Assembly (NCBI RefSeq): GCF_003722355.1
Contig: NZ_QWDD01000001.1
Coordinates: forward strand, 620,001-684,000
Origin: Methylocystis hirsuta
GTDB taxonomy: Bacteria; Pseudomonadota; Alphaproteobacteria; Rhizobiales; Beijerinckiaceae
Direction of reading: 5' to 3'
DNA: 64,000 nt
The notes under the pieces are model-generated. The model was not told the origin of the DNA, ran no database searches, and saw nothing but the letters and a program-made list of their open reading frames with translations. Positions 13,260 to 32,357 of this stretch are shown here, one piece after another. The stretch's first letter is position 1; every line of letters begins with the position of its first letter. Position numbers and translations under genes: made by a program.

Positions 13260-14102
13260 TTAAATGTCTGCGTCGGCTTCTCCCTTGGTTCTTGGGCTTA
13301 CGCTAGGCTCGTCGGCATTGCGCCGTTGCGCCTTCCTGGCTGTCGCGAGACGATAGCTGTCGCCGTTCATCTCCAGAATGTGGACATGATGGGTGAGCCG
13401 ATCGAGCAGTGCGCCGGTGAGCCGTTCCGACCCGAACACCGACGTCCATTCATCGAATGGCAGATTGCTGGTCACCAGCGTGGCGCCACGTTCATAGCGC
13501 TGGCTGAAGACCTCGAAGAGCAGTTCAGAACCAACCGCCGTGAACGGCACGTAGCCCAGCTCATCGACGATCAGCAATTTGACGGTGTTGAGATGCTTTT
13601 GCAGCGCCCGCAGGCGGCGCTCGTCGCGCGCTTCCATGAGTTCGTGCACGAGAGCGGCGGCCGAGGTGAAGGCGACGCTGAAGCCCTTTTGGCAAGCGGC
13701 GAGCCCAAGGGCGAGCGCGACGTGAGTCTTGCCGGTTCCGGATGGACCCAGCGCGATGCAGTTCTGTCGCTTCTCTATCCATTCGCACCGCGCCAGCTCC
13801 AGAACCAGCGGCTTGTTGAGTGACGGCTGCGCGGCGAAGTCGAATGTGTCGAGGCTCTTGATCTGCGTAAAGCGCGCCAGGCGAATGCGACGCTCGACAT
13901 TGCGCCGCTCGCGATCGATGCGCTCCAGTTCGCACAGGCGCAGCAAATAGCGCGGATAATCGGCGCGATCTTGCGCCGATTCCAGCGCCACTTTCTCATA
14001 TTCGCGCGCGAAGGTGGGAAGCTTCAACGCCTTGAGGTGATTGCCCAGTAGCACCTGCGGCGCGACGATCGTTTGGGAGGTCGACTCCTGCGAGGCGCTC
14101 AT
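13260..14102 (-). CDS. istB: IS21-family helper ATPase IstB
   Basis: 280 residues. Walker A GPSGTGKTH and Walker B LLIVDELGY sit in a DnaC-like AAA+ domain, followed by TSNLPFDEW and DRLTHHVHI, all typical of IstB. It forms oligomers on target DNA and stimulates the IstA transposase. The start overlaps the end of istA (ATGA, 14099-14102), giving translational coupling. The gene looks intact. Confidence 0.95.
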   Translation of the reverse strand: MSASQESTSQTIVAPQVLLGNHLKALKLPTFAREYEKVALESAQDRADYPRYLLRLCELERIDRERRNVERRIRLARFTQIKSLDTFDFAAQPSLNKPLVLELARCEWIEKRQNCIALGPSGTGKTHVALALGLAACQKGFSVAFTSAAALVHELMEARDERRLRALQKHLNTVKLLIVDELGYVPFTAVGSELLFEVFSQRYERGATLVTSNLPFDEWTSVFGSERLTGALLDRLTHHVHILEMNGDSYRLATARKAQRRNADEPSVSPRTKGEADADI

Positions 14103-15625
14103 GCCGAAACTCGTGCACTTGGCTCGATAGCGGCTGCGTTGGCGACGAGCCCGAGATAGGCGCGCGGGTCTGTCGCGCCGACTGTCGCCACTGGCAGATA
14201 GGGATAGAATGTCAGATCGAGCCGGGCTGGCCGGTTCTCCAATTTGGCGAGCAGGAGCATCTTCACCGCGTCAAAACTGATTGCGCCAAGACGCAGCGCC
14301 TCCGCGATGGCCTGTTCGACGAGATGTTGATGGAAGTCCTCCATCAGCCGCAGCACCTGGATGAACTCGCGGCGCCCGCTGTTCCCCATGCGCGCCTCCA
14401 TCAGCCGCCGCAGACGATAGACGCAATCGGCGAGGCGCCAGTCGTCGAGCGGCGCGGCCTGATCGAGCGCCTGGCTCTTGTGTTCGAGCAAGGCGAGATA
14501 ATGCAGCGGATTATAAATGAACTCGGCCTTGTCGTAGCTGCGCGCATGCACGGCGACCGTCTCACCGCGACAGACAATCTCGACTCTGTCGACGTAACCC
14601 TTCGCCAACACCTCTTGATGGCCATAGCGGGTTGGAACCGAGTAATCGTTGTTGCGGTAGCGCACCAACGACATGGACGAGACGCGCGTCGCAATCTTGT
14701 GACAGGCGTCATAAGGGGTCGGCGGCAACGGCATGAACGCGGATATGTCCGACTGCATGCGTTCGCTGATCGTCATCGACTGGCCGCGCAATATTGCCTG
14801 TCGTCGCTTCGTGCAGGCGTCGAGGAGCCTTACGTTGAGCGCGTCGAAACTCTCCGCGACAGGCAGAGGCGTCATGAAGTTGCGCCGGACATAGCCGACC
14901 AGCCCCTCGACCTTGCCCTTGTCATTGCCTTTGCCCGGTCTGCCGAAGCGATCCTCAAACAGATAATGGCTTTGGAGTTCGGCAAACATTTGCGAACGCA
15001 GGCGCCTGCCGCCCTTCACGATCTTTGCAACGGCGAGCCGAGTGTTGTCGTATAAAATCGACTGCGGCACGCCGCCGAAAAAATCGAACGCCGCCACATG
15101 ACCATCGCAAAAGGCTTCCGCTGTCTCGGCGGGATAGGCCTTGACGAAGCAACTGTCCGAGTGCGGCAGGTCCACGCAAAAGTAATGAAAGCGGACCTTC
15201 TTGCCGGCGATGTAGCCGTCCGCCTCGCCAAAATCCGCCTGCGCCTGTCCGGGGCAATGGCTCAACGGAATAAACATCTCGCGCGACCGCAACAGCGCCC
15301 GCGCCACATACTCGCGAACGATCGTGTAGCCGCCGGAAAACCCCTCTTCGTCCCGTAACCGTTCAAAAATCCGCTGCGCCGTATGCCGCTGCTTTTTGTG
15401 AACGCTCCGGTCGCCCTCCAGAATATTGTCGATCCAGGCCATATACGGCCCCAGCTTCTTCGATGCCGGCCGCTCGCGCCGCCGATAGCCCGGCGGAATC
15501 GAATATTGGAGCATCTTCGTGATCGTGTTGCGATGAACGCCAAAGCGCTTAGCCGCCTCCCGCCGGCTCAGCCCGTCCGCCATCACTGCGCGTCGTATCG
15601 CGGCATAGAGTTCCACTGTGAACAT
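14099..15625 (-). CDS. istA: IS21-family transposase IstA
   Basis: 508 residues. An N-terminal HTH (SRREAAKRFGVHRNTITKML) precedes a DDE integrase core (YPAETAEAFCDGHVAAFDFFGGVP, then ILYDNTRLAV and RFGRPGKGNDKGKVEGLV with the final E). It cuts and joins the element ends. The reading frame appears full length, so the insertion may still be mobile. Confidence 0.95.
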   Translation of the reverse strand: MFTVELYAAIRRAVMADGLSRREAAKRFGVHRNTITKMLQYSIPPGYRRRERPASKKLGPYMAWIDNILEGDRSVHKKQRHTAQRIFERLRDEEGFSGGYTIVREYVARALLRSREMFIPLSHCPGQAQADFGEADGYIAGKKVRFHYFCVDLPHSDSCFVKAYPAETAEAFCDGHVAAFDFFGGVPQSILYDNTRLAVAKIVKGGRRLRSQMFAELQSHYLFEDRFGRPGKGNDKGKVEGLVGYVRRNFMTPLPVAESFDALNVRLLDACTKRRQAILRGQSMTISERMQSDISAFMPLPPTPYDACHKIATRVSSMSLVRYRNNDYSVPTRYGHQEVLAKGYVDRVEIVCRGETVAVHARSYDKAEFIYNPLHYLALLEHKSQALDQAAPLDDWRLADCVYRLRRLMEARMGNSGRREFIQVLRLMEDFHQHLVEQAIAEALRLGAISFDAVKMLLLAKLENRPARLDLTFYPYLPVATVGATDPRAYLGLVANAAAIEPSARVSA

Positions 15626-18282: not shown

Positions 18283-19605
18283 TTATGCGACGTCGCCGCC
18301 TGTTCTCTTGAACGCCAGCACGTCTGCGCCGCCCAACTCTCTTGGTTCGCAATGCGTCGCCCATTGCTCCATCAAATGCCGGCGTTGTTCCAGAACGTCC
18401 GTTCGGCGATAAGCGCGCTCGACGCTCGTGCCGACGACATGGCCCATCGCCTCTTCGACGACGGCGTGAGGAAAGCGCGCAACCTCCTCGCACCACGTCC
18501 GAAAGGTCGCCCGGAAGCCGTGTGGGACGATCGGCTTGCCGTCGCTTGCGGGATCGATCCATTTCGTCTCGCCGCTGTTCATCCGCTTGAGCAGAACCAG
18601 CATCGCCATATTGCTCAAAGGCTTGCCGGTAGCGCTAGGGAAGACGAAGCGCGAGACCCGAACGGCCTCCAGCTCTTTCACTATCTCGACTGCGCGAGGC
18701 GCGAGCGGGATGCGGAAGGACTCCTTGCGGTGCTTCTTGTCCTTCAGCTTTGAGGGCGGAATCGTCCAGACGCGCGCGTCTAGATCGAACTCGCGCCATT
18801 CGGCATTGAGCGCCGTCCCTGTCCGCACATTCGTCAGGATTAGGAATTCGAGCAGCCGCGACGCTATGGCGTCTCGCTGGCGAAGCGCCGCTGTGAAGGC
18901 CGCCATTTGCTCGTAGGGCAATGACGGGTGACGGCCGCGCGACAATTGCGTCGGAGCGCTGAACCCCAGCGCTTTCAGATCGTCCCACCGAGCCGGGTTG
19001 TCTATGGAAAGGCCGTGCTGGTCACGAAGCACGATGCGGGCGCTTTCGAAAACGCGCCGGATGGCGGGATAGAGCTTGCGGGCGACCTCCGGCTTGCTGC
19101 GCCAGACGGGCTTGAGGACCGCCGCCACGTCGCTCGTCGTTATCTCATTGACCGGCCTTGCCAGCAGCAGCGCGCAGTAAGCCGGCCCGAGATGGCGCTC
19201 CCACTGATAGGCGACCTTGGCGTTGCTCGTCCTGGCCTGCGCCTCTGCGATCACATCTTTAGCAATGTCGGCAAAGGTAGGGATCGGCCGTGACGCCTTC
19301 CGGGCTTCTTCCCGCGCGGCCAGAGGGTCAACGCCCTGCGCGATTTTGGTCCGGGCGGAGAGCGCCGCCATCCGCGCCGCGGATAGGGAGGTCTCGGGAT
19401 AGGGACCCAGCCCCATGTCCCGACGCCTTCCGTCCATCTGATAGCGCAGAACCCATTTCCGTCCGCCGGCAGGCGAGACGACGAGATAGAGGCCGTCGCC
19501 GTCGGCATGCTTGCCCGGCCCTACGCTCCGCGCCGTCCTGTCCGTGAGCTTACCCACCTTGCCGGTCCCACGTTTGGTCCCACAAATCGACGTGGATTGT
19601 GACAT
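18283..19605 (-). CDS. Tyrosine recombinase/integrase, P4 type (integrase 2)
   Basis: 440 residues. A DUF4102 arm-binding domain (GKHADGDGLYLVVSPAGGRKW) precedes a catalytic domain with R261 (TNVRTGTALN), H362-x-x-R365 (HGFRA), H389 (MGHV) and Y399 (AYRR), so all key residues are present. It differs clearly from integrase 1. Its 5' end faces the right att copy about 100 bp away. In the excised circle the two integrases would diverge from a single attP. No Shine-Dalgarno is evident at ATG 19605. Confidence 0.93.
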   Translation of the reverse strand: MSQSTSICGTKRGTGKVGKLTDRTARSVGPGKHADGDGLYLVVSPAGGRKWVLRYQMDGRRRDMGLGPYPETSLSAARMAALSARTKIAQGVDPLAAREEARKASRPIPTFADIAKDVIAEAQARTSNAKVAYQWERHLGPAYCALLLARPVNEITTSDVAAVLKPVWRSKPEVARKLYPAIRRVFESARIVLRDQHGLSIDNPARWDDLKALGFSAPTQLSRGRHPSLPYEQMAAFTAALRQRDAIASRLLEFLILTNVRTGTALNAEWREFDLDARVWTIPPSKLKDKKHRKESFRIPLAPRAVEIVKELEAVRVSRFVFPSATGKPLSNMAMLVLLKRMNSGETKWIDPASDGKPIVPHGFRATFRTWCEEVARFPHAVVEEAMGHVVGTSVERAYRRTDVLEQRRHLMEQWATHCEPRELGGADVLAFKRTGGDVA

Positions 19606-20192: not shown

Positions 20193-20208
20193 TGGCGCCT
20201 TCATTGCA
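20193..20208 (+). promoter_or_regulatory. Sigma-54 (-24/-12) promoter of the barrel-nasTS unit
   Basis: TGGCGCC-TTCA-TTGCA has GG (20194-20195) and GC (20206-20207) separated by exactly 10 bases, matching the RpoN consensus TGGCACG-N4-TTGCA at most positions. Transcription should start near 20219. This predicts NtrC-type control by nitrogen limitation. I did not find a clear NtrC palindrome by eye. Confidence 0.65.
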
Positions 20209-20245
20209 TCCGTTTGGCGCGAGGGCGTCGCTTGCGACGTCACCC

Positions 20246-20277
20246 GGTCCACAGAAGGGCCCCCAGCATCGCCGCTG
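20246..20277 (+). promoter_or_regulatory. ANTAR-type RNA motif (NasT target), leader 1
   Basis: Two adjacent hexaloop hairpins: P1 GGUCC-ACAGAA-GGGCC (20246-20261, one G-U pair) and P2 CAGC-AUCGCC-GCUG (20264-20277). Both loops have A at position 1 and G at position 4, the conserved bases recognised by ANTAR antiterminators. The 3' strand of P2 is also the 5' strand of the terminator that follows, so NasT binding would prevent termination. The cognate NasT is encoded in the same operon. Confidence 0.75.
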
Positions 20278-20320
20278 TCCTGAACGTCTGCTTCGCAGGC
20301 GTTCAGGCAGCGGCTTTTTT
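20271..20320 (+). terminator. Attenuator terminator overlapping hairpin P2
   Basis: The stem GCCGCTG-t-CCTGAACG (20271-20286) pairs with CGTTCAGG-CAGCGGC (20300-20314), capped by CTGC/GCAG, and is followed by six T (20315-20320) and another T-run. This is a strong intrinsic terminator lying 26-44 bp before the gene, in the position expected for an antitermination switch. Confidence 0.85.
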
Positions 20321-20363
20321 CGTTTTTGTGGCGCGCGCAGGCGAGATGCAGATGAGGTTCGCG

Positions 20364-21599
20364 ATGAAGAGAGCACAGTCCCAGCGATCGATGCGCCAAC
20401 AGCCGCCATGGCGCGGCGCAAGTTTGATAGTCGTGGCGGCCGCGCTCGTCGCGACCGGCGCGAACGCCGCGCCCCGCAAGAACGCGCCGTCCGAGGCGAC
20501 TTCGATACAACTTCAAGCGCCGCCGCCATCCCTCGCGCCGGCCGCGCCGCCTCCGCCGCCGCCGGCGCCCATGGGGGTGTTCGGCGCCGATATGCCGGCC
20601 GCCGGCAAACTCGTTTTCTCCATTACGCCGGTGTTCGCCAATCTGTCGGGCATCAAAATGGGAACGCGCACGGTCTCAAACGAATATATCGTCACGACGG
20701 TGCCGTTCTTTCTCAATCCCAAGCAGACTGTGCGTATTATTCCGCAAAACATTGCGGTCGCGACGCAAATTGCCGGATTGAGCTATGGCGTCACGAAAGA
20801 TTTCGCAGTGGTTCTCACGGCCGGCATGATCGAGAAAAATCTCAACGCGCTCACCTTCAAGGGCGCGTCGGGCATTCTGCCGCTTGGCAGGAGTTTGCCG
20901 GGAACGACGAGCCTTGCCGACGTCACCTTGTCGGGCGTCTATCGCATCTATCAGGACGACGTCCACCGCATCCAGCTCTCTCTTGGCATCTCGTTGCCCG
21001 CCGGCAGCTACACAGCCACATTCAAGGACTTTCTCCTGCCCGACGGAACCCGCCGCAACGTCCGTGCATTCTATGGCATGCAGCCCGGCACGGGCACATT
21101 CGATTTGCTGCCGGGCATCGTCTATGCAGGCTATCTGGGACCATGGTCATGGGGCCTCGGCTATCGCGGCCGCTTCCCCCTGGCCGCAAATTCACTGGGC
21201 TATTCCTGGGACTACCTGCTCGAATATCGCCTGCGCTTCCCGCTCGGCCCCAATCCTTCCGGGGGCTACCGCTGGGGCGATCTGCATGAATTCAACGCCT
21301 GGGGCGGCTACACCTGGACGCCCGGACTCACCACCACCTTCCGCTTGAGCGGTTCGACGCAGGGCCCGATTCGCGGCTTCGATCCGGAAATCCGCGGCCC
21401 CGCCGTGCCCGCCAATCCGGCCTTCTATGGCGGACAGCGGCTCGAAGTCTTCGGCGGCGCGACGATCAGCGGCAAATTTGTCGGCTATGAAAATGTGACG
21501 GTCGCGGTCGAGGCGGGTCTCCCCGTGTATCAGAATCTCAACGGTCCGCAGATCATGAAGAACTGGCAGGCGGGCATGTCGTTGCGGTTCAAGATATAA
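20364..21599 (+). CDS. Outer-membrane beta-barrel protein of the nas cluster (MetA-degradation-type transporter fold)
   Basis: 411 residues. A signal peptide (GASLIVVAAALVATGANA, cleavage near residue 35) leads to a proline-rich linker (PPPSLAPAAPPPPPPAPMG) and then alternating aromatic/glycine strands with a final phenylalanine-containing strand (SLRFKI), typical of the 'transporter' family related to PF13557. It should form an outer-membrane channel. Start ATG 20364 has GAGG 6 bases upstream; ATG 20346 is the alternative. It is first in the unit controlled by sigma-54 and NasT, so a role in nitrate or nitrite passage is inferred. Confidence 0.7.
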   Translation: MKRAQSQRSMRQQPPWRGASLIVVAAALVATGANAAPRKNAPSEATSIQLQAPPPSLAPAAPPPPPPAPMGVFGADMPAAGKLVFSITPVFANLSGIKMGTRTVSNEYIVTTVPFFLNPKQTVRIIPQNIAVATQIAGLSYGVTKDFAVVLTAGMIEKNLNALTFKGASGILPLGRSLPGTTSLADVTLSGVYRIYQDDVHRIQLSLGISLPAGSYTATFKDFLLPDGTRRNVRAFYGMQPGTGTFDLLPGIVYAGYLGPWSWGLGYRGRFPLAANSLGYSWDYLLEYRLRFPLGPNPSGGYRWGDLHEFNAWGGYTWTPGLTTTFRLSGSTQGPIRGFDPEIRGPAVPANPAFYGGQRLEVFGGATISGKFVGYENVTVAVEAGLPVYQNLNGPQIMKNWQAGMSLRFKI

Positions 21600-21696: not shown

Positions 21697-22269
21697 TTGA
21701 AGATCGTCATCGTCGACGAAAGCCCCATTCGCTCGTTGATCCTCGAGGAGGGACTGCGTGACGCCGGCTTCACGCAGGTCGAGCGCATCGGCGAAATGCA
21801 CAATCTGCTGAAGCACATCTACGCCAGCGACCCTGACGTCATCCTGATCGATCTCGAGAATCCTTCCCGCGATACGCTTGAACAAATGTTTCAGGTCAGT
21901 CGCGCCGTGCGTCGGCCGATCGCCATGTTTGTCGATCAGAGCGATACGGCGTCCATTCAAGCCTCGGTCGACGCTGGCGTCTCGGCCTATATCGTCGACG
22001 GGTTGAAAAAGGAGCGCATCAAATCGATCCTCGATCTGTGCGTGTCGCGGTTCAATGCCTTCTCGAAGCTTCAGGATGATCTCGATCAGGCCAAATCCGA
22101 TCTCGAGGAGCGCAAGACGATCGAACGCGCCAAAGGCATATTGATGAAGGCGAAGAAGCTTTCCGAAGAAGACGCCTACAAGATGATGCGCGGCGCCGCC
22201 ATGCGCGAAAACAAAAAGATTGTCGAAATTGCACGCTCGGTCATCACTGCGGCGGAGATGTTTAAATGA
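21697..22269 (+). CDS. nasT: Nitrate-responsive antiterminator NasT (receiver-like + ANTAR)
   Basis: 190 residues from TTG 21697, where the NasT-like sequence KIVIVDESPIRSLILEEGLRDAG begins; a GTG at 21601 would add 32 residues that do not look like NasT. The receiver-like domain (ILIDLENPSRDTLEQM, FVDQSD) is followed by the C-terminal ANTAR three-helix domain (ERAKGILMKAKKLSEEDAYKMMRGAAM). NasT binds paired hexaloop RNA hairpins and stops terminator formation. Without nitrate it is held by NasS, encoded next with a 4-base overlap. Targets: the leaders at 20246 and probably 23576. Confidence 0.88.
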   Translation: MKIVIVDESPIRSLILEEGLRDAGFTQVERIGEMHNLLKHIYASDPDVILIDLENPSRDTLEQMFQVSRAVRRPIAMFVDQSDTASIQASVDAGVSAYIVDGLKKERIKSILDLCVSRFNAFSKLQDDLDQAKSDLEERKTIERAKGILMKAKKLSEEDAYKMMRGAAMRENKKIVEIARSVITAAEMFK

Positions 22270-23414
22270 CCGGCGAAGCGCATGTGAAAATCGGCTTCAT
22301 TCCGCTCGTCGACGCCGCTGCGCTGTTGATTGCCGCGCATAAGGGATTCGCCAAGGCGGAAGGACTCGACATCGAACTGATCCGGGAAGCGTCTTGGGCG
22401 AATATTAGAGACAAGCTCGCCATCGGCCGTTTCGATGCGGCGCATCTTCTGGCGCCAATGGCGGTCGCGTCCACGCTCGGACTGGGCCATGTGCGAGTCC
22501 CGCTTGTCGCGCCGATGAATCTCGCGATGAACGGCAATGCGATCGCGGTGTCCACGGCGCTTTATGCCGAACTCGCCGCGGAAGGCGAGGTCGCGCATCC
22601 GGCGCAAACCGCGCGCGCGCTCGCCAAGCTCGTCGCGCGGCGAAGGGCCGAGGGACGTGAGCCTCTGACCTTCGGCATGACCTTTCCTTTTTCCATGCAC
22701 AATTATCAGCTGCGCTACTGGATGGCGGAAGGCGGCGTCGATCCGGATGAAGACCTGCGGTTGATCGTTCTGCCGCCGCCCTACATGGTCGAAAATCTGG
22801 CGCGCGGCCAGCTCGACGGCTTTTGTGTTGGCGCGCCCTGGAGTTCTGTCGCGGTCGACGCCGGCGTTGGCGTCATTCTGCATTTCGGCTGCGAGATTTT
22901 CGCGTGCGCGCCCGAGAAGGTCCTCGCTCTACGCGAAAGCTTCGCCGACGATGATCATAGTCTCGTCGCCGCGCTGATCCGTGCGCTCGATAGGGGCGCC
23001 GCCTTCGTCGACGAGCCGCAAAACCTGGGCGAGGTTTCGCAAATCCTCTCGCGACCGGAATATGTCGGCGTCGACGCCGAGATCATCCGCCGCGTGCTCA
23101 CGGGCCATTTGCGCGTTAAGGCGAGCGACGAGCGAAGCGACGCCAATTACCTCATCATCGGAAGAGACGGCGCCATGCGGCCGGATCCACGGCAAGCCGA
23201 GTGGATCTATGCGCAGATGCTCCGCTGGGGGCAGACGCGCCATTCGCCAGAGATGGCCGATCGCGCGAAGAGCGTCCTGCGCCCGGATCTTTTCGACGCC
23301 GCGATCGATTGCGCGCACATTCAGCGCGAAATCGGGGCCTTTGCGGGACCCTCTTTCGGCGGCCGAAGCTACGCCGACTATCTCGCCGGCTTCGATATCG
23401 GACAGCGCCTGTGA
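22266..23414 (+). CDS. nasS: Nitrate sensor NasS (NrtA-like, cytoplasmic)
   Basis: 382 residues of the NrtA/CmpA periplasmic-binding fold (KIGFIPLVDAAALLIAAHKGFAKAEGLDIELI, GQLDGFCVGAPW) but with no signal peptide, which marks it as the cytoplasmic sensor NasS and not a transport component. It binds nitrate/nitrite and in their absence sequesters NasT. ATGA overlap with nasT (22266-22269) couples their translation. No NrtB/NrtC permease genes follow, which supports the sensor reading. Confidence 0.87.
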   Translation: MTGEAHVKIGFIPLVDAAALLIAAHKGFAKAEGLDIELIREASWANIRDKLAIGRFDAAHLLAPMAVASTLGLGHVRVPLVAPMNLAMNGNAIAVSTALYAELAAEGEVAHPAQTARALAKLVARRRAEGREPLTFGMTFPFSMHNYQLRYWMAEGGVDPDEDLRLIVLPPPYMVENLARGQLDGFCVGAPWSSVAVDAGVGVILHFGCEIFACAPEKVLALRESFADDDHSLVAALIRALDRGAAFVDEPQNLGEVSQILSRPEYVGVDAEIIRRVLTGHLRVKASDERSDANYLIIGRDGAMRPDPRQAEWIYAQMLRWGQTRHSPEMADRAKSVLRPDLFDAAIDCAHIQREIGAFAGPSFGGRSYADYLAGFDIGQRL

Positions 23415-23549: not shown

Positions 23550-23565
23550 TGGCCCGAAATGTGCA
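23550..23565 (+). promoter_or_regulatory. Second sigma-54 promoter, before the reductase operon
   Basis: TGGCCCG-AAAT-GTGCA has GG (23551-23552) and GC (23563-23564) 10 bases apart, close to TGGCACG-N4-TTGCA. The predicted start near 23576 coincides with the first base of hairpin P1 of leader 2. This gives the structural genes their own nitrogen-regulated promoter. Confidence 0.62.
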
Positions 23566-23575
23566 ATCACCCCAT

Positions 23576-23624
23576 CGGTCAACGACGACCGCCGGTCCGC
23601 CGGAACGAGCCCAAAGCTGGGCTC
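23576..23624 (+). promoter_or_regulatory. Second ANTAR-type RNA motif (NasT target), leader 2
   Basis: P1 CGGUC-AACGAC-GACCG (23576-23591) and P2 GAGCCC-AAAGCU-GGGCUC (23607-23624) are hexaloop hairpins with A at loop position 1 and G at position 4. They are separated by 15 bases. The GGGC of P2 can instead pair with GCCC at 23671-23674 around a long imperfect stem, a possible competing structure, but there is no U-run after it. So the motif is convincing while the output mechanism (attenuation or other) is less clear than in leader 1. Confidence 0.65.
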
Positions 23625-23741
23625 CGTCACAGAAGCGATTTCGCAATTTGCGTCGCGCTTTGGTCGTCTTGCCCGTTCTCATCACACTTAAGGCAATGCG
23701 ACCTGTGACCGGACCGTTCGGCCGTTCAGCAGAGTCGACAC

Positions 23742-24974
23742 ATGACTGGATTGAAGGATTGCAGTAGTCGCGAAAAGCTTGTCGTCGTCGGCGCCGGCAT
23801 GGCGGCCACGCGTTTCGTCGAGGAGCTGACGAACCGGGCGCCGGATCGATACGACATTCTCGTGATCGGCGACGAACCGCGGCTTGCCTATAACCGCGTG
23901 CTGCTTTCTTCGGTGCTGGCAGGGGAATTGTCGGTCGATGACATCGAGCTCAAGCCCCGGCAATGGTGGCGCGCCGCCGGCGTTGAGGTTCTGAGCGGCC
24001 GCAAGGTCATCAAGATCAACGCCGCGGCGCGGCGCCTCCTTCTCGATAATGGCGAGAGCGTCGACTATTCGAAAGTCGCGCTCGCCACGGGTTCGCGCGC
24101 GGCAAGGCTGCCGATCGAGGGCGCCGATCTTCCGGGCGTTCACGTATTTCGCGACGTGCAAGACGTCGAGGCGATGTCCCGGCTGGAAGGCAGAGGCGCT
24201 CGCGCGCTCGTCGTCGGCGGCGGCCTTCTCGGACTGGAGGCGGCCTATGGCCTTGCGCGACGCGGCGTCGACGTGACGCTCGCCCATGTCATGGATCGGC
24301 TGATGGAGCGCCAACTCGATGCGGTCGGCGCCGACATCCTGCGCCGGCTTGTCGAAGAAAAGGGCGTGCGCGTGCTTCTCAACGCCAATGCGACGCGCAT
24401 CAACGGTTCGGGCCGAGTCGAGAATGTAGAGTTCGCCGACGGACAAACGATTCCGGTCGACGCCGTGATTTTCGCCGTCGGCATTCAGCCCAACGCCGAC
24501 CTCGCGCGACAGGCGGGTCTTGACGTCGGGCGCGGCGTGAAGATCGACGATGGCTTGGAGACAAGCGAATCCGGCGTTTTCGCCATCGGCGAATGCGCTG
24601 AACATCGCGGCGTCTGTTACGGCCTCGTCGAGCCTGCCTATGAGCAGGGGCGCGTTCTCGCCATGCGACTCGCCGGACAAGAGGCGTCCTATGGCGGCAG
24701 CGTCGTCTCCACCAATCTGAAAGTCTCCGGCGTGCGCGTCTTCTCGGCTGGCGATTATCTCGGCGAGGGCGATGCGCGCCGCATCGTCTGCAAGGACCCG
24801 CGCATGGGAATTTATCGCAAGCTTGTCGTGCGCGACGACAGGCTCATGGGCGCGATCCTTGTGGGAGATACGAACGGAGCCGCAGATATTCTCGATCTCA
24901 TCCGCTCCGGCGCGGACATTTCCTCTCAGTGCGACGAATTGATGTTCGGACCGCCTATGCGAGAGGCCGCCTGA
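23742..24974 (+). CDS. FAD-dependent NAD(P)H oxidoreductase of nitrate/nitrite assimilation
   Basis: 410 residues. The FAD Rossmann motif VVVGAGMAATRFVEEL is followed by a second NAD(P) motif, ALVVGGGLLGLEAAYGL, and the FAD-contact stretch SGVFAIGECAEHRG, the arrangement of the N-terminal half of NirB and of NasB/NasC reductases. The C-terminal Fe-S and siroheme parts of NirB are absent, so it is a stand-alone electron-input subunit. It begins the operon behind leader 2 and is 1 bp from the nirA gene that it probably serves. Confidence 0.82.
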   Translation: MTGLKDCSSREKLVVVGAGMAATRFVEELTNRAPDRYDILVIGDEPRLAYNRVLLSSVLAGELSVDDIELKPRQWWRAAGVEVLSGRKVIKINAAARRLLLDNGESVDYSKVALATGSRAARLPIEGADLPGVHVFRDVQDVEAMSRLEGRGARALVVGGGLLGLEAAYGLARRGVDVTLAHVMDRLMERQLDAVGADILRRLVEEKGVRVLLNANATRINGSGRVENVEFADGQTIPVDAVIFAVGIQPNADLARQAGLDVGRGVKIDDGLETSESGVFAIGECAEHRGVCYGLVEPAYEQGRVLAMRLAGQEASYGGSVVSTNLKVSGVRVFSAGDYLGEGDARRIVCKDPRMGIYRKLVVRDDRLMGAILVGDTNGAADILDLIRSGADISSQCDELMFGPPMREAA

Positions 24975-24975
24975 A

Positions 24976-26730
24976 ATGTCCGTCGATTTCACGCTCGACC
25001 AGAAGCGCTATCTCGAAGGCTTTGCCGCCGGCTTCTCGGCGCGCGGCGGACAAAAGGCGCCGCCCGCGCAGGCGCAGCCGATGGGACCGGACGCCGCGCC
25101 TTTATCCGCGCAGGATCGCACCGTCGCCGCAGGCGGCAAGCTGACCGATCAGGAAAAATGGAAACGCGAAGAGCATCCATTCGACGCCTGGCCGCGGCTT
25201 GTCGCTCAGGCGAAAGAGAACGCGCCGCCAAAGCCCGCCGACAATTTCCGCTGGCGCTACTATGGGCTCTTCTATGTCGCGCCAGCGCAGGATTCCTATA
25301 TGTGCCGGCTGCGCATTCCCAATGGCGCGCTCAACCATTGGCAATTCGCCGGGCTTGCGGATCTCGCGGAAAATTATGGCGGCGGCTATCTGCATGTTAC
25401 GACGCGCGCCAATATCCAGATCCGCGAAATCGCGCCGCAAAACGCCACGAATATTTTGGAGGCGATTCAGGATCTGGGGCTGTGGAGCAAGGGCTCCGGC
25501 GCCGACAATATCCGCAACATCACCGGCACGCCGACCGCGGGAGTCGATCCGCAGGAACTCATCGACACGCGCCCCTATGCGCGCGCCATGCATCATCACA
25601 TCCTCAACGATCGCTCGCTTTACGGACTGCCGCGCAAGTTCAACATCGCCTTTGACGGCGCGGGATTGATCGGCGCGCTGGAAGACACCAATGACATCGG
25701 CTTTCAGGCCATCGTCGTAAAGGATGGTCACGGCGTCGCGCCGGGCGTTTATTTCCGTCTCGCGCTCGGCGGTATCACCGGTCACAAGGATTTCGCGCGC
25801 GACACGGGCGTGATCGTTTCGCCGGACGAAGCGGTGGAGGTCGCCGACAAGATTCTGCGAGTCTTCATCGAACATGGCGATCGCACCAATCGCGCCAAGG
25901 CGCGGCTCAAATATGTGCTCGACGCCTGGGGCTTCGACAAATTCCTCGCCGCCGTCGAGGAAAAGCTGGGCCGCAAGCTGCTTCGCGTAGACGCGGCGGC
26001 TATCGCCGTCCGCCCGCGTCAGGATCGCGCCGCGCATATCGGCGTGCATCCGCAAAAGCAGCCGGGCTTCAATTGGATCGGCGTAATGTTGCCGGTCGGT
26101 CGTTTCACCCCCGAGCAGGCGCGCGGTCTCGCCGAGATCGCGCGCCAATTCGGCGATGGCGGTCTGCGCCTCACGGTCTGGCAGAATGTGCTGATCACCG
26201 GCGTCGCGGATGAACACATCGCGGACGCTGTCGCGATGATCGAGGCGCTCGGCCTTTCGACGCAGGCTTCGACCATTCGCGCCGGACTCGTCGCCTGCAC
26301 GGGAAATTCCGGCTGTCGTTTCGCCGCCGCCGACACCAAGCGGCATGCTGAAGAGATCGCCGCCTATTGCGAGGCCGCGGCGCCGATCGACACGCCGATC
26401 AACATTCATCTCACCGGCTGCCACCATTCATGCGCGCAGCATTATATCGGCGACATCGGATTGATCGGCGCGCGCGTGCCGGTGAATGACGAGGGCGACG
26501 CGGTCGAGGGCTATCACATTCTCGTCGGCGGCGGCTTTGCGGAAGACGCCGGCATCGCCTCCGAGTTTTATCAAAATGTGAAAGCGGAAGAGGCGCCGGA
26601 AATGGTGGCGAAAATTCTGCGCGCCTATCGAAAGAACCGGGCGAACGCGGAAGAAACCTTTGTCGGCTTCGCGCGCCGTCACGACATCGAGACGCTGCGC
26701 CGTCTCGCCAATGAGGAGAGCGTGGCGTGA
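24976..26730 (+). CDS. nirA: NirA-type siroheme nitrite reductase
   Basis: 584 residues. Two ferredoxin-like half-domains and the 4Fe-4S/siroheme cysteines are seen in CTGNSGCRFA and GCHHSCAQH, the C-x5-C and C-x3-C pairs of nitrite/sulfite reductases. It reduces nitrite to ammonium in the cytoplasm. The N-terminus begins LDQKRYLEGFAAGFSA, a short segment also seen at the start of the following flavoprotein (RAWLSGFFAGFAA), suggesting a shared interaction motif. The next gene overlaps by 4 bases (26727-26730). Confidence 0.92.
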   Translation: MSVDFTLDQKRYLEGFAAGFSARGGQKAPPAQAQPMGPDAAPLSAQDRTVAAGGKLTDQEKWKREEHPFDAWPRLVAQAKENAPPKPADNFRWRYYGLFYVAPAQDSYMCRLRIPNGALNHWQFAGLADLAENYGGGYLHVTTRANIQIREIAPQNATNILEAIQDLGLWSKGSGADNIRNITGTPTAGVDPQELIDTRPYARAMHHHILNDRSLYGLPRKFNIAFDGAGLIGALEDTNDIGFQAIVVKDGHGVAPGVYFRLALGGITGHKDFARDTGVIVSPDEAVEVADKILRVFIEHGDRTNRAKARLKYVLDAWGFDKFLAAVEEKLGRKLLRVDAAAIAVRPRQDRAAHIGVHPQKQPGFNWIGVMLPVGRFTPEQARGLAEIARQFGDGGLRLTVWQNVLITGVADEHIADAVAMIEALGLSTQASTIRAGLVACTGNSGCRFAAADTKRHAEEIAAYCEAAAPIDTPINIHLTGCHHSCAQHYIGDIGLIGARVPVNDEGDAVEGYHILVGGGFAEDAGIASEFYQNVKAEEAPEMVAKILRAYRKNRANAEETFVGFARRHDIETLRRLANEESVA

Positions 26731-28325
26731 CCCATATGTCCTCTCCGCCTTTTCTCATTCCGCCGAACGCGCCTTTCACGCCCGAGCAGCGCGCCTGGCT
26801 CAGCGGCTTCTTTGCCGGCTTCGCCGCGCCCGATGACAGCTCGATCACGCCGCTCTCGCCAGAAGCCAACGCCGCCGTCATGGCTGGCGCCGATAGCGAC
26901 GATGGCGAGGCGCCGTGGCATGACCAGATGCTGACGCTCGAATCGCGCATGCAGCTTGCCCAAGGCCGTCCGCTGCGTCGCCGCCTGATGGCGGCCATGG
27001 CGCAGCAAGACTGCGGCCAGTGCGGCTACATTTGCGAGACCTATGCGGACGCGCTCGCGGCGCGCAAGGAGGCTCGCCTCAATCTCTGCGCGCCCGGCGG
27101 CAAGGATACGGCGCGCATGGTGAAGGCGCTTGCGGCCGAGCTGGATTCGCCAACGCCGGCCAATGTTACGCAAGCAGAATCGGTCATCACTACGCCTGCA
27201 GTCCTGTCGGCGCCCGGCTGCTCGCGCGATAATCCGGCGCGCGCGACATTCCTTTCACGCCGTCGGCTGAACAAGGAAGGCTCGGAAAAAGACACCTGGC
27301 ACATCGAGTTCGAACTCGGCGCCGGCGACATGAGCTACAAAGTTGGCGACAGTTTCGGCGTGTTTCCCAAAAATGATCTCGGCCTCGTCGATCAGATCAT
27401 CGCCATGCTCGGCGCCTCGCATGTGACGCCTGTGCGAGACAGGACTCTGCGCGAAGCATTGCTGAGCGACGTCTCTCTCGCTCCGGCGCCTGATGCGCTT
27501 TTCGAGCTGATCTCCTTCGTCACCGGCGGCGCGCAGCGGGAGAAGGCGCGTTTGCTGGCGCAGGGCGAGGATCCTGACGGCGACGCCGCCAAGCTCGACG
27601 TGCTCGCCGTGCTGCAGAAATTCCCCAGCGCGCGGCCGCATCCGGAAGCCTTCGTCGAAGCGTTGGAGCCGCTGCAGCCGCGACTCTACTCCATCTCCTC
27701 GTCCCCCAAGGCGACGCCGGGGCGCCTGTCGCTGACTGTCGACGCGGTTCGATATGTCGTCGGTAAGCGCAGGCGTCTTGGCGTCGCCTCGACCTTTCTG
27801 GCCGAGCGCATCGCGCCAGGCGACAGCCTTCCGGTCTATGTGCAGTCGGCGCATGGCTTCGCCCTGCCGGATGATCCCGCGACGCCGATCATCATGATCG
27901 GGCCTGGCACCGGCGTCGCGCCATTTCGCGCCTTTCTGCATGAGCGCGCGGCGACCCGCGCGCCCGGCAGGAACTGGCTCTTTTTTGGACACCAGCGCTC
28001 GGCCTGCGATTTCTTCTACGCCGACGAATTCGAAACGATGAAGGCGACAGGTCTGCTCACGCGTCTGTCGCTCGCCTGGTCGCGCGACGGCGCGGAAAAA
28101 TTCTATGTGCAGGACCGCATGCGCCAGTCCGGCCGTGAATTATGGGCGTGGCTTGCGGAAGGCGCGCATTTTTACGTCTGCGGCGATGCGCAGCGCATGG
28201 CCAAGGATGTCGAACGCGCGCTTGTCGACGTCGTCGCCGAATTCGGCGCCCGCAACGCCGATGAAGCGGTCGCCTTCGTCGCGCAGCTCAAGAAGAGCGG
28301 GCGCTACCAACAGGACGTCTATTGA
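26727..28325 (+). CDS. Sulfite-reductase-alpha-like flavoprotein with N-terminal Fe-S segment
   Basis: 532 residues. An N-terminal cysteine cluster, QDCGQCGYICETY then LNLCAPGG (about 92-130), resembles a 4Fe-4S binding domain. The rest is the FAD/NADPH-binding half of CysJ-type reductases (RLYSISSSPK, GPGTGVAPFRAFL, FFGHQRSACDFFY, HFYVCGDAQRMA, ending in DVY). The flavodoxin domain of true CysJ is missing. Position between nirA and nasA implies NADPH-to-nitrate or nitrite reductase electron transfer; which enzyme it feeds cannot be told from sequence. Confidence 0.82.
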   Translation: MTHMSSPPFLIPPNAPFTPEQRAWLSGFFAGFAAPDDSSITPLSPEANAAVMAGADSDDGEAPWHDQMLTLESRMQLAQGRPLRRRLMAAMAQQDCGQCGYICETYADALAARKEARLNLCAPGGKDTARMVKALAAELDSPTPANVTQAESVITTPAVLSAPGCSRDNPARATFLSRRRLNKEGSEKDTWHIEFELGAGDMSYKVGDSFGVFPKNDLGLVDQIIAMLGASHVTPVRDRTLREALLSDVSLAPAPDALFELISFVTGGAQREKARLLAQGEDPDGDAAKLDVLAVLQKFPSARPHPEAFVEALEPLQPRLYSISSSPKATPGRLSLTVDAVRYVVGKRRRLGVASTFLAERIAPGDSLPVYVQSAHGFALPDDPATPIIMIGPGTGVAPFRAFLHERAATRAPGRNWLFFGHQRSACDFFYADEFETMKATGLLTRLSLAWSRDGAEKFYVQDRMRQSGRELWAWLAEGAHFYVCGDAQRMAKDVERALVDVVAEFGARNADEAVAFVAQLKKSGRYQQDVY

Positions 28326-28333
28326 GGCCGCTC

Positions 28334-31114
28334 ATGCTCGATGAAGTCCTGGCGCCGGCGGCGCTTGAAAATCTGCACAACAGCATCGCGCCTGTTCAGG
28401 CGACGACGACGCGCTCGACCTGCCCCTATTGCGGCGTCGGTTGCGGCGTGCTCGCGTCCGCAAATGGCGCCGAAGTGATTGGCGATCCGGCGCATCCCGC
28501 AAATTTCGGTCGGCTCTGCTCCAAGGGATCGGCGCTTGGGGAGACGCTCGGGCTCGGCGGGCGCCTGCTCCATCCGATGCGCCGTCAGGCCGACGGCGCC
28601 TTCGCACGCGTGAGTTGGGATGTGGCGCTGGACGAAGCCGCCGGCGGTTTTCGTCGTATCGTCGACGAGCACGGTCCTGACGCCGTCGCGGTCTATCTCT
28701 CCGGCCAGCTGCTGACCGAGGATTATTACGTCGCCAACAAGCTGATGAAGGGCTTTATCGGCTCCGCCAACGTCGACACCAATTCGCGCCTGTGCATGGC
28801 CTCCACGGTCGCGGGCCACAAGCGCGCCTTCGGCGCCGACGTCGTGCCGGGCTGCTACGAGGATCTGGACGAAGCCGACCTCATTGTGCTCGTCGGCTCC
28901 AACGCCGCCTGGTGTCACCCCATTCTGTTCCAGCGCATCATGCGCAACAAGGAGGAGCGCGGCGCCAAGCTCGTCGTCATCGACACGCGCCGCACGCCGA
29001 CGGCCGAAAGCGCCGACCTGTTTCTGCAGATCGCGCCGGGCGCCGATCAGGCGCTGTTTTGTGGCCTGCTCGTCAATCTGGCGAAGGTCGGCGCATTCGA
29101 CGCCGACTATATTCGCCAATACACAACCGGTTTCGAAAGCGCTCTGACCGCGGCCCGGAACATTGCGCCGTCGATTGAAGCGACTGCAATGTCGACGCAG
29201 CTGCGTGAGGTCGATATTGCGGCCTTCTTCGAACTCTTCGCGCGAACGACGCGCACGGTGACCGCCTTCTCGCAGGGCGTCAATCAGTCGGCGCAGGGGA
29301 CCGACAAGGTCAACGCCATCATCAATTGTCACCTCGCGACAGGCCGCGTCGGCAAGCCCGGCGCGTCGCCCTTTTCGCTCACGGGTCAGCCCAACGCCAT
29401 GGGTGGGCGCGAAGTCGGCGGACTCGCCAACAGCCTCGCCGCGCATATGGGCTTCGAGCCCGCAAACATCGACCGCGTTCGCCGCTTCTGGAATGCGCCG
29501 CGCATGGCGCCGCGCGAGGGGCTGAAGGCGGTGCAGATGTTCGACGCCATCGCGCGCGGCGACATCAAGGCGCTGTGGGTCGTCGGAACCAATCCGGCGG
29601 CGTCGCTTCCAAACGCCAATGCCGCCCGCGACGCTCTTAGCAAGCTCGAACTCTTCATCGTCTCCGATAATGTGACGTCGAACGATACGATCAATAGCGG
29701 CGCGCATTTGCTCCTGCCGGCGCAGGCGTGGGGCGAAAAGAGCGGCGCGGTGACGAATTCGGAGCGCCGCATCTCGCGTCAGCGCGCCTTTATGCCTGCC
29801 CCGGGAGAAGCGCGCGCCGACTGGGCGATCTTCGCGGATGTCGCGCGACGCATGGGCTTTGCAGGCTTCGACTACGGAGTGGCCGCAGATGTTTTTCGCG
29901 AACACGCCGCGCTTTCGGCGTTCGAGAATGACGCAACGCGGGCTTTCGATATTGGCGGTCTCGCCCGGCTGAGCGACGCTGAATATGACGCGCTCGAGCC
30001 GACGCAGTGGCCAATCCGCGATGGCGACGGCAAGGGCCGCGCGCGCCTCTTCGCCGACGGCGCGTTCTTCTCGCAGGGCGGACGCGCCACATTCATCGCG
30101 CCGGCGAAGCCGACGTTGGCGACCACATTGACGAAAGACTTCCCGCTCCGGCTCAACACCGGCCGCATCCGCGATCAGTGGCACACCATGACGCGCACGG
30201 GCGCGAGCCCACGCCTTGCACGGCATCTTCCGGAACCCTTCCTGGAGATCAATCCGTCGGATGCGGCGGATCTTGGAGTAGAGGACGGCGGCTTCGCTCG
30301 CGTCGCGACGCCCTATGGGAGCTGCGTCTTGCGCGCGGTGGCGACGGATCGCCAGCCTGCGGGGCATGTTTTCGCGCCGATCCACTGGACCGATGAAACC
30401 GCCGAGGATGCGCGCATTGGCGCGCTCGTCGCGCCCTTCGTTGACCCCTTCTCGGGTCAGCCGGAATCCAAGGCGACGCCCGCCATCGTCACCCCTTTGC
30501 GCTTTGCGCGCCAGGGCTTCCTCCTCTCGCGCAACCCGATCACGCTGCCCGAGGGCGTGTGGTGGACGCGGGTCGCCGTCGCTGATGGCTACGGCTACCG
30601 CGTCGCCGCCGACCTGTCGGATGACGGCTGGACAGACATCATCCGCGCCGCTTCGGCGTGCGAAGACGTCGCACAATTGATCGATGAGACGAAGAGCCTC
30701 TTTTCGGGCGCCGCCTTCGTCGAGGACCGCGCAACGCTCATCTGGGCGCTGGCGCCTGTTTCGCCATCTTGGGATTTGGCGCTCGAACTCTTCGCCCGCG
30801 ATCGTCTCGATCAGTCAGAGCGGCTGTCGCTGTTGTCCGGTCGCTCGGGCCGACAGCTGACGGATGACGGTCCGCTCGTCTGTTCATGCTTTCGCGTCGG
30901 CCAAAAGCAAATCGAAGCTGCAATCCAGCAAGGCTGCCGCTCGGCGCCCGACGTCGGCGAGGCCACCCGCGCAGGCTCCAATTGCGGCTCCTGCCGACCG
31001 GAAATTCAGCGTCTCATCAAGATTTCTCTCGCCGCCGAGTCTGCGATGGATTTGGCGCGAGAGGATCAAACAAGCATGAAAGAAGGAGCATCTGATGAAA
31101 CTGTCGGATTTTAA
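28334..31114 (+). CDS. nasA: Assimilatory nitrate reductase, molybdopterin catalytic subunit
   Basis: 926 residues. The N-terminal 4Fe-4S ligands CPYCGVGC (30-37) with a later CSKG are followed by the bis-MGD oxidoreductase core (NTGRIRDQWHTMTRTG near the C-terminal cofactor domain) and a C-terminal BFD-like [2Fe-2S] domain (CSCF ... NCGSC). It reduces nitrate to nitrite in the cytoplasm; there is no Tat signal. ATG 28334 is preferred over TTG 28322 because GAGG lies 6 bases upstream, inside the end of the previous gene. The transporter gene begins within its last 20 bp. Confidence 0.93.
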   Translation: MLDEVLAPAALENLHNSIAPVQATTTRSTCPYCGVGCGVLASANGAEVIGDPAHPANFGRLCSKGSALGETLGLGGRLLHPMRRQADGAFARVSWDVALDEAAGGFRRIVDEHGPDAVAVYLSGQLLTEDYYVANKLMKGFIGSANVDTNSRLCMASTVAGHKRAFGADVVPGCYEDLDEADLIVLVGSNAAWCHPILFQRIMRNKEERGAKLVVIDTRRTPTAESADLFLQIAPGADQALFCGLLVNLAKVGAFDADYIRQYTTGFESALTAARNIAPSIEATAMSTQLREVDIAAFFELFARTTRTVTAFSQGVNQSAQGTDKVNAIINCHLATGRVGKPGASPFSLTGQPNAMGGREVGGLANSLAAHMGFEPANIDRVRRFWNAPRMAPREGLKAVQMFDAIARGDIKALWVVGTNPAASLPNANAARDALSKLELFIVSDNVTSNDTINSGAHLLLPAQAWGEKSGAVTNSERRISRQRAFMPAPGEARADWAIFADVARRMGFAGFDYGVAADVFREHAALSAFENDATRAFDIGGLARLSDAEYDALEPTQWPIRDGDGKGRARLFADGAFFSQGGRATFIAPAKPTLATTLTKDFPLRLNTGRIRDQWHTMTRTGASPRLARHLPEPFLEINPSDAADLGVEDGGFARVATPYGSCVLRAVATDRQPAGHVFAPIHWTDETAEDARIGALVAPFVDPFSGQPESKATPAIVTPLRFARQGFLLSRNPITLPEGVWWTRVAVADGYGYRVAADLSDDGWTDIIRAASACEDVAQLIDETKSLFSGAAFVEDRATLIWALAPVSPSWDLALELFARDRLDQSERLSLLSGRSGRQLTDDGPLVCSCFRVGQKQIEAAIQQGCRSAPDVGEATRAGSNCGSCRPEIQRLIKISLAAESAMDLAREDQTSMKEGASDETVGF

Positions 31115-32357
31115 AAAGGCCGGTCATTGGCCGACGCTGCTTGCGGCCTTCCTCTACTTTGATATCAGCTTCATGGCTTGGGTCTCGCTCGGCCCGCTGA
31201 TGATTTACATCAGCAAAGGCATGCCGATTTCCGTCGAGGACAAACTCTCGCTTGTCGCGATTCCCGTTCTCGGCGGCGCCTTCTTTCGCGTTCCGCTCGG
31301 CCTCCTCGCCGACGCGATCGGCCCGAAGATGACGGGCATCCTCGCGCAGGCGATCGTGATGTTCGCCGTATCTCTGGTGTGCGTCTTTGGCCTGAGCAGT
31401 TCGATCGCCATCGCGCTTTTCGGCTTGTCCCTCGGAGTCGCCGGCGCCTCCTTCGCCGTCGCCTTGCCGCAGGCCGGCCGCTGGTATCCGCCGCAATATC
31501 AGGGTCTGGTGATGGGCATCGCCGGCGCCGGCAATATGGGGGTCGTGCTCGACACGCTTTTTGCGCCCTCGATCGCCGAGGCTTACGGTTGGCAGGCCGT
31601 TTATGGCGTATTGCTCGCGCTGATGGTCTTGGTGCTGCTCATTTATTCGCTGGCCGCCAAGGACGCGCCCGGCGGCAAAACGACGATTGCTCTTGCCGAC
31701 TACGGCAGAATGCTCGCGGACTCTGACAGCCGCTGGTTCATGTTTTTCTACTTCATCACCTTCGGCGGCTTCGTTGGTCTTGCTTCGGCGCTGCCGCTCT
31801 ATTTCACGACGCAGTATCACGCCACCGGAGTCGCCGCGGGCCTCATGGTCGCGCTGATCGTCGCTTTCGGTTCGGGTTTCAGGCCCGTCGGCGGCTATAT
31901 CGCGGACCGCATCGGCGGGGTGAAGACGTTGTGCTTCCTCTTCGTTCTCGTTTCCGCCTGTTATTTCGCCGTCGCCTTTCTGCCGGCGGGACCGGCCCCG
32001 GCGAAAGGCGTTGCGGGATGGGGTCTGATGCAGCTGCCGCCTGTCGCCTTTGCAGCGGTGGCGCTGTTCTCTGTCGGCGTGTTATCGCTCGGCATGGGCA
32101 ATGGCGCGGTGTTTCAGTTGCTGCCGCAGCGTTTCCGCCGGGAGATTGGCGCGATGACTGGCCTCGTCGGCGCGGCAGGCGGTTTTGGCGGATTTTTTCT
32201 CGCCAAGACGCTCGCCTATTCCAAAGGAGCGACGGGCGGCTTCACCGCGGGGTTCGTCTTCTTCGGTTTCCTTGCGCTGCTCGGTCTCGTCGGTTTGATC
32301 TTCGTTAAGACGCGCTGGCGGACGACCTGGGGCGCCGTTTCCGGCGCGCGAATCTGA
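31095..32357 (+). CDS. NarK/NasA-type nitrate/nitrite transporter (MFS)
   Basis: 420 residues with about 12 hydrophobic segments. Nitrate signature-like glycine-rich stretches are present (GVAGASFAVALPQAGRWYPP and GAMTGLVGAAGGFGGFF), as in NarK-family carriers. It brings nitrate across the inner membrane, or exports nitrite. AAGGAG precedes ATG 31095. The start lies inside nasA, so expression is coupled to the reductase. Confidence 0.9.
   Translation: MKLSDFKKAGHWPTLLAAFLYFDISFMAWVSLGPLMIYISKGMPISVEDKLSLVAIPVLGGAFFRVPLGLLADAIGPKMTGILAQAIVMFAVSLVCVFGLSSSIAIALFGLSLGVAGASFAVALPQAGRWYPPQYQGLVMGIAGAGNMGVVLDTLFAPSIAEAYGWQAVYGVLLALMVLVLLIYSLAAKDAPGGKTTIALADYGRMLADSDSRWFMFFYFITFGGFVGLASALPLYFTTQYHATGVAAGLMVALIVAFGSGFRPVGGYIADRIGGVKTLCFLFVLVSACYFAVAFLPAGPAPAKGVAGWGLMQLPPVAFAAVALFSVGVLSLGMGNGAVFQLLPQRFRREIGAMTGLVGAAGGFGGFFLAKTLAYSKGATGGFTAGFVFFGFLALLGLVGLIFVKTRWRTTWGAVSGARI

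Follow-up and report, generated by a model that had tools for sequence, protein, structure and literature searches.

The leader described here has two close relatives in the literature. In the nasA system of Paracoccus denitrificans and the nosR system of Bradyrhizobium, as far as the accessible text of the reports goes, a receiver–ANTAR protein (NasT), an NMT1-type partner (NasS) and a hairpin leader respond to a nitrate signal (PMC3795266, PMC5424462, PMC6759348). Nitrate or nitrite is described as freeing NasT from NasS in Paracoccus, and NasT as binding the nasA leader (PMC3795266, accessible portion). The eut system of Enterococcus faecalis (EutV) is portrayed in the available excerpts as using two hexaloop hairpins with A at loop position 1 and G at position 4 (A1/G4), the second of them overlapped by a terminator (PMC3369931, PMC8934654); EutV action requires A1 and G4 (PMC3369931) and, in addition, a fixed linker (PMC3369931, PMC8934654).

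The stretch that we analysed, a 64-kb piece of the Methylocystis hirsuta genome (hereafter, the window), carries a leader of this type ahead of a gene for an outer-membrane beta-barrel. Unlike in the accessible accounts of nasA and nosR, the barrel gene comes first here, with nasT and nasS downstream of the leader; and unlike in eut, the candidate system combines a nitrate switch that has a partner protein, a promoter of sigma-54 type and a target in a Gram-negative outer membrane. The attenuator itself is of a known type, and an outer-membrane channel is an unusual gene for such control: searches of open-licence papers, to the extent of the text these make accessible, returned no NasT-controlled porin. 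The accessible text on nasA and nosR names no porin target; the Bradyrhizobium table lists one outer-membrane protein gene, blr1311, which is up (not down) in a nasT mutant. Nitrogen-regulated porins per se are not new, since NtrC affects several porins, as well as nasT, in Burkholderia cenocepacia (PMC5491218, accessible text). We put the probability that the first leader is a NasT-controlled transcription attenuator of the barrel gene at roughly 0.85, a figure that excludes the substrate of the channel.

Anatomy of the leader ahead of the barrel gene

The first leader and the genes behind it comprise the following features.

20193–20208, + strand: sigma-54 (−24/−12) promoter site, TGGCGCCTTCATTGCA (sequence, pattern count and conservation)
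20223–20241, + strand: extra 5′ hairpin (computed fold)
20246–20261, + strand: ANTAR-type hairpin P1, 5 bp, loop ACAGAA (fold and alignment)
20264–20277, + strand: ANTAR-type hairpin P2, the putative antiterminator, 4 bp, loop ATCGCC (parsing and alignment)
20271–20320, + strand: intrinsic terminator with stem 20271–20314 and T6 at 20315–20320 (computed fold; 5′ arm shared with P2)
20346–21599, + strand: outer-membrane beta-barrel gene, start ATG at 20346 or 20364 (signal peptide by eye)
21697–22269, + strand: nasT, receiver plus ANTAR, TTG start inferred (PF00072 and PF03861 above cut-offs)
22266–23414, + strand: nasS, NMT1_2-family sensor (PF13379 above cut-off)
23742–32357, + strand: nitrate/nitrite assimilation genes (NCBIfam/Pfam profiles)

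The sequence-only reading had proposed a −24/−12 site, two A1/G4 hexaloop hairpins and an overlapping T6 terminator, in that order, and this arrangement was borne out position by position. Bases 20271–20277 are common to P2 (3′ arm side) and the terminator, so that the two structures are mutually exclusive. The leader folds far more stably than its shuffled versions (z = −5.9; 0 of 200 shuffles equally stable). By script, four tandem A1/G4 hexaloop pairs were found in the 64-kb window, and a T run follows the pair of the first leader only; ten shuffled windows held one or two tandem pairs each, one pair in total being followed by a T run. The standard terminator scan of the window did not list the 20271–20320 terminator, probably because of a one-base bulge in the stem. 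Rfam models at gathering score identified tRNA only across the window, and at E up to 10 they gave eight matches to the first leader, all far under their gathering scores and none representing a matching family.

Sigma-54 promoters follow the consensus TGGCAC-N5-TTGCA, with a GG-N10-GC core. The pattern TGGCNCN5TTGCW occurs a single time in the window (chance mean 0.33), and by itself it is weak evidence because 27 of 100 shuffles contained at least one occurrence. Scored against the consensus, a GG-N10-GC site matching at least 8 of 11 positions lies within 90 nt upstream of all 26 distinct barrel leaders compared, at a distance of 29–36 nt in 25 and of 14 nt in one; a score of at least 9 of 11 was reached in 22 of these 26 leaders versus 19 of 4000 stretches of 90 nt drawn at random from the window.

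How such a leader would work can be drawn from published work on NasT and EutV, from which we infer NasT release, binding and antitermination at this site. Sigma-54 polymerase, presumably with NtrC, would initiate at 20193–20208 when nitrogen is limiting. In the absence of nitrate or nitrite, NasS would keep NasT, and the 20271–20320 terminator would halt transcription ahead of the barrel gene. Once nitrate or nitrite is present, NasT would be freed and would contact P1 and P2 at their A1/G4 loops; NasT-bound P2 would stay paired, thereby blocking the terminator and permitting expression of the barrel gene, nasT and nasS. In computed folds, a structure with P2 forced is dearer than the free fold by 7 to 15 kcal/mol in 26 of 26 leaders (in L042, a neighbouring hairpin was forced instead), which argues that termination would be the default state.

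The gene neighbourhood is one of nitrate use. NasT adjoins the NMT1-type NasS in the window, and the assimilation genes follow in the order NirB N-half-like FAD protein, NirA, CysJ-like flavoprotein, molybdopterin oxidoreductase and NarK-type transporter. Of these five, NirA and the CysJ-like flavoprotein scored above the NCBIfam cut-offs and the other three below, and it is as an under-cut-off match that the molybdopterin oxidoreductase is read as a nitrate reductase. Upstream of the leader, the genes at 13260–15625 and 18283–19605 resemble, by eye, a transposase pair of IS21 type and a tyrosine integrase; the nas cluster may lie at the edge of a mobile region.

Conservation and distribution of the leader–barrel pair

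The whole arrangement is repeated in Methylocystis and Methylosinus, upstream of barrel genes homologous to that of the window. We read the loop sequences of 26 distinct barrel leaders from an alignment (A7): all 26 have A1 and G4 in each of the two loops. Conservation of these bases in related genomes, one of two points that the sequence-only reading had named as able to refute it, thus held. The remaining loop 1 positions (2, 3, 5 and 6) all vary. In loop 2, position 2 is variable, position 3 almost fixed, and positions 5 and 6 as constant as A1 and G4; as G4, 5 and 6 of this loop are also part of the terminator stem, their invariance may be the terminator's doing, and loop 1 is therefore the cleaner evidence. 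The P1 pairs change compatibly (CG, TG or TA at pair 3; GC to AT at pair 4 in four leaders), with mismatches at pair 4 in one leader and at pair 5 in two, and the third pair of P2 is lost in two leaders (L040 and L136). The loop-to-loop distance from P1 to P2 is 11 to 14 nt in the leaders parsed, that is, a short linker.

An ordinary terminator of upstream transcription, with hexaloops arising by chance, would account for the strength of the 20271–20320 terminator in the computed fold. It would leave unexplained the invariant A1/G4 and the −24/−12 site, each in 26 of 26 leaders, and the overlap of P2 with the terminator, and we regard it as very improbable.

Barrel homologues were found in 15 of the 149 genomes of a family draw, our own included, with a leader directly upstream at seven loci by parsing and at an eighth (L040) by eye. 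The nearest named barrel loci are from Methylocystis, at 93 to 97% identity. A covariance model built from nine barrel leaders (R1) has two matches in the own genome at E 0.01 or better and, in a second family draw, matches in 54 of 199 genomes at E 0.01. Of its 14 rows at 69 bits or above, 13 lie before a barrel and one (G168) before an nrtA-like gene, a ranking that is partly circular because R1 was built on barrel leaders; two further barrel leaders (G151 and G177) score 46 bits each. Altogether, 15 genomes, the own one included, have the leader directly before a barrel gene. When 30 leader matches, three weak ones among them, were viewed in context, six preceded a barrel, 15 an nrtA-like gene—these encode binding proteins about 30% identical to NasS—and nine another or an unclear gene. 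Since R1 matches (54 of 199 genomes) far outnumber barrel leaders, the barrel is no general part of the NasT regulon; judged from these comparisons, it is a lineage-specific predicted target in addition to the usual one, the nitrate transporter.

Named records overlap with the genome draws (e.g. G135 with L126, G042 with L135), so that their counts are not additive. Among 41 named barrel loci, R1 matched before the barrel in 21 (in L127, before a separate barrel fragment), five are cut off upstream (L117, L125, L152, L154 and L155), and 15 gave no R1 match despite the presence of upstream sequence. Leaderless loci include L121, L132, L133 and L150, whose barrels are 57 to 83% identical.

Some leaders depart from the common form. 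A weaker one in the own genome (C1:62624–62711, L084:2625–2712; 40 bits, first loop TACGAC, with a −24/−12 site) precedes a small ORF and an MFS gene; upstream of this leader, a stretch resembling the MFS gene's start is repeated (by eye). The first loop begins with G in two nrtA-like leaders (GCCGAA in L039:7581–7665, GTCGAA in L130:9222–9304); the barrel leaders of loci L039 and L130 retain A at this position.

With nasT and nasS as the next two genes after the barrel, nasTS autoregulation enters the picture: in Methylocystis, readthrough should, from the gene order, raise nasT and nasS too. The accessible text of the NasT literature that we surveyed contains no description of a nasTS autoregulatory loop of this kind. 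Such autoregulation might even be what the leader serves, the barrel being first in the operon by mere happenstance, and the presence of nasT behind the barrel in 17 of 21 leader-bearing named loci (all but L122, L128, L131 and L135) would fit, as would the window's spacing of 97 bases from the barrel to nasT, counted to the inferred TTG start. However, five Methylosinus genomes (G042, G078, G128, G161 and G187; a single genus) have leader and barrel without an adjacent nasT. In these genomes nasT, 80 to 82% identical, lies a few kb from a separate leader before an nrtA-like gene (L090–L094), and in the three of the five that were read closely, the leader–barrel pair sits between acetate kinase- and phenylalanyl-tRNA synthetase-like genes (by eye). 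The retention of leader–barrel pairs where nasT sits elsewhere argues that the barrel is probably a NasT target in its own right, and we consider it unlikely that the leader exists for nasTS.

The barrel protein and its possible solutes

No Pfam or NCBIfam profile matches the barrel protein at E 0.001. Searching the own genome with PF13557 (Phenol_MetA_deg) at E up to 1 pointed to one other place and left the barrel unmatched, and with the barrel alignment as query, a sequence search of the PDB yielded two matches at chance level. COG4313 channels are 12-stranded barrels with an N-terminal plug; the AlphaFold model of the window protein is modest (pLDDT 63, pTM 0.63) and gives no firm strand count. 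Compared by structure, this model matched FapF and 4rl8 best, with 12–13% identity, and its predicted fold is closest to FapF and a COG4313 channel. From the COG4313/Phenol_MetA_deg channels and FapF, the window protein is set apart by this low identity, by the missing family-profile match and by its gene neighbourhood. In the accessible text, the authors of the COG4313 work doubt transport of hydrophilic solutes and tie these proteins to hydrophobic substrates (PMC4493636).

The sequence-only reading had cast the barrel as a nitrate- or nitrite-specific porin under NasS–NasT. Its regulatory half is well supported at the sequence level, given A1/G4, the overlapping terminator, the adjacent nasTS and the conserved leader–barrel pairs; its substrate half is a possibility to which neighbourhood and regulation point. 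The barrel is probably a channel in the outer membrane that supports growth on nitrate. It could just as well be under NasT and yet carry a different solute needed on nitrate, be it a nitrogen compound, a metal or a hydrophobic substrate, and to this we give an even chance. The fold relationship and the hydrophobic substrates of COG4313 proteins are in keeping with a different solute, as are the distant barrel homologues, several of which are Met/His-rich (by eye) and one of which is at the Phenol_MetA_deg cut-off. By contrast, the linkage of the barrel to nitrate genes and to a nitrate-sensing switch in two genera favours nitrate or nitrite; so does, as weak evidence, the charge of the mature barrel (30 K+R versus 20 D+E), which is compatible with anions.

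Two arguments on specificity were dropped: charge as a guide to the solute, for the weakness just given, and a lack of general porins, where one Porin_2 match at 23 bits against a cut-off of 22 is not decisive. In two barrel homologues (L042:6517–8445 and L043:8932–10884), a further outer-membrane barrel domain (PF13505) is fused on, and distant homologues in L147, L149 and L132 lie near genes for an NMT1-type binding protein or an ABC transporter.

A second leader ahead of the nirB-like operon

A further conserved element follows nasS, with these parts.

23550–23565, + strand: second −24/−12-like site, before the second leader (comparison of nasS–nirB gaps)
23577–23744, + strand: second leader (comparison and folding)
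23577–23590, + strand: first hairpin, GGTC-AACGAC-GACC
23607–23624, + strand: second hexaloop hairpin
23626–23632 with 23703–23709, + strand: helix
ahead of ATG 23742, + strand: possible Shine–Dalgarno sequence AGAG, then the start codon

This leader precedes the nirB-like/nirA (nitrite-reductase) operon and is present in Methylocystis and Methylosinus. We compared 25 loci in which nasS and a NirB-like gene are 100 to 700 bases apart, several organisms being represented twice: all 25 gaps contain a −24/−12-like site, and 24 contain GGTCAACGACGACC, with one base changed in L139. For the alignment (A5) we left out duplicates (L100, L126, L136 and L137), L119, which has two motif copies across an N, and the near-identical L118, L120, L125 and L134. 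The first hexaloop has A1 and G4 in 16 of 16 sequences; the second has G4 in 16 of 16 and A1 in 13. The linker, at 16 nt between 23590 and 23607 and with a possible mini-hairpin, is not of the short type. No T run was seen at this leader and no terminator was listed by the scan, the same one that missed the bulged terminator of the first leader.

Rfam at E up to 10 had no match to the second leader. At E 0.01, a model of it (R2) had matches in 11 genomes, from three genera, of a 199-genome family draw; at E 0.001, among 199 genomes drawn from the whole order, it matched the own genome only. The R2 match lies before a NirB-like gene in G017 and G105 too, and for a weak match in G084 no NirB-like gene was found beside it. 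The second leader is not universal: G114 gave no R2 match, and in L039 and L129 the stretch between nasS and the genes that follow carries a classical leader of R1 type instead.

Two folds of the second leader are close in computed energy, the forced first hairpin and a forced long-range helix lying less than 5 kcal/mol apart in 16 of 16 sequences. In the first-hairpin fold, the helix GTCACAG/CTGTGAC shows compensatory changes (GTCACAA/TTGTGAC in L117, GTCACGG/CCGTGAC in L165, TTCGCGG/CCGTGAA in L139), whereas the 13-pair long-range helix shows none (8 pairs never vary, 0 double changes). An automatic search recovered the neighbouring partner of the outer helix in 7 of 12 sequences, those in L040, L042, L089, L139 and L165 being recognised by eye only, and all 7 pairs of the inner helix in 9 of 12 (not in L042, L099 and L164). 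Compared with swapped arms, the helix arms form 6.6 versus 5.7 and 6.8 versus 5.8 pairs of 7, a comparison biased by a helix search that maximises pairing. The AGAG is partially paired in either fold. In most sequences from Methylocystis and Methylosinus, its mean unpaired probability is about 0.5 when the first hairpin is forced and about 0.25 when the long-range helix is. Of the 16 sequences, 14 have the higher value with the hairpin, L139 has equal values and L042 a lower one. Given these mixed pairing and covariation results, a NasT-driven translation switch at the second leader is a conjecture.

At its widest, the interpretation would have type II methanotrophs use two NasT RNA designs: an attenuator for a dedicated nitrate/nitrite channel (with nasTS autoregulation in Methylocystis) plus a bistable nirB leader in which NasT, bound to the two hexaloops, would select a fold that leaves the ribosome-binding site more open. 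We offer this tentatively, as a rather doubtful whole. The nearest described parallel to its second part, in the text available, is that of actinobacterial ANTAR RNAs that sequester the ribosome-binding site or the AUG, with hexaloops of A1/G4 type and a possible action on translation (PMC8164766); the second leader differs from these in having a mini-hairpin sequence between the hexaloops, alternative folds and a ribosome-binding site outside the hexaloops. It may be the more novel element of the two, and would be an opening onto ANTAR action on translation in proteobacteria.

For the first leader, NasT control of the barrel would place this unassigned barrel family of methanotrophs in a concrete, testable context, and it predicts that the sensor feeds back on its own expression. 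If true, nitrate-sensing antitermination would reach the outer membrane, such that entry would be tuned at the first barrier by the switch that governs nitrate use.
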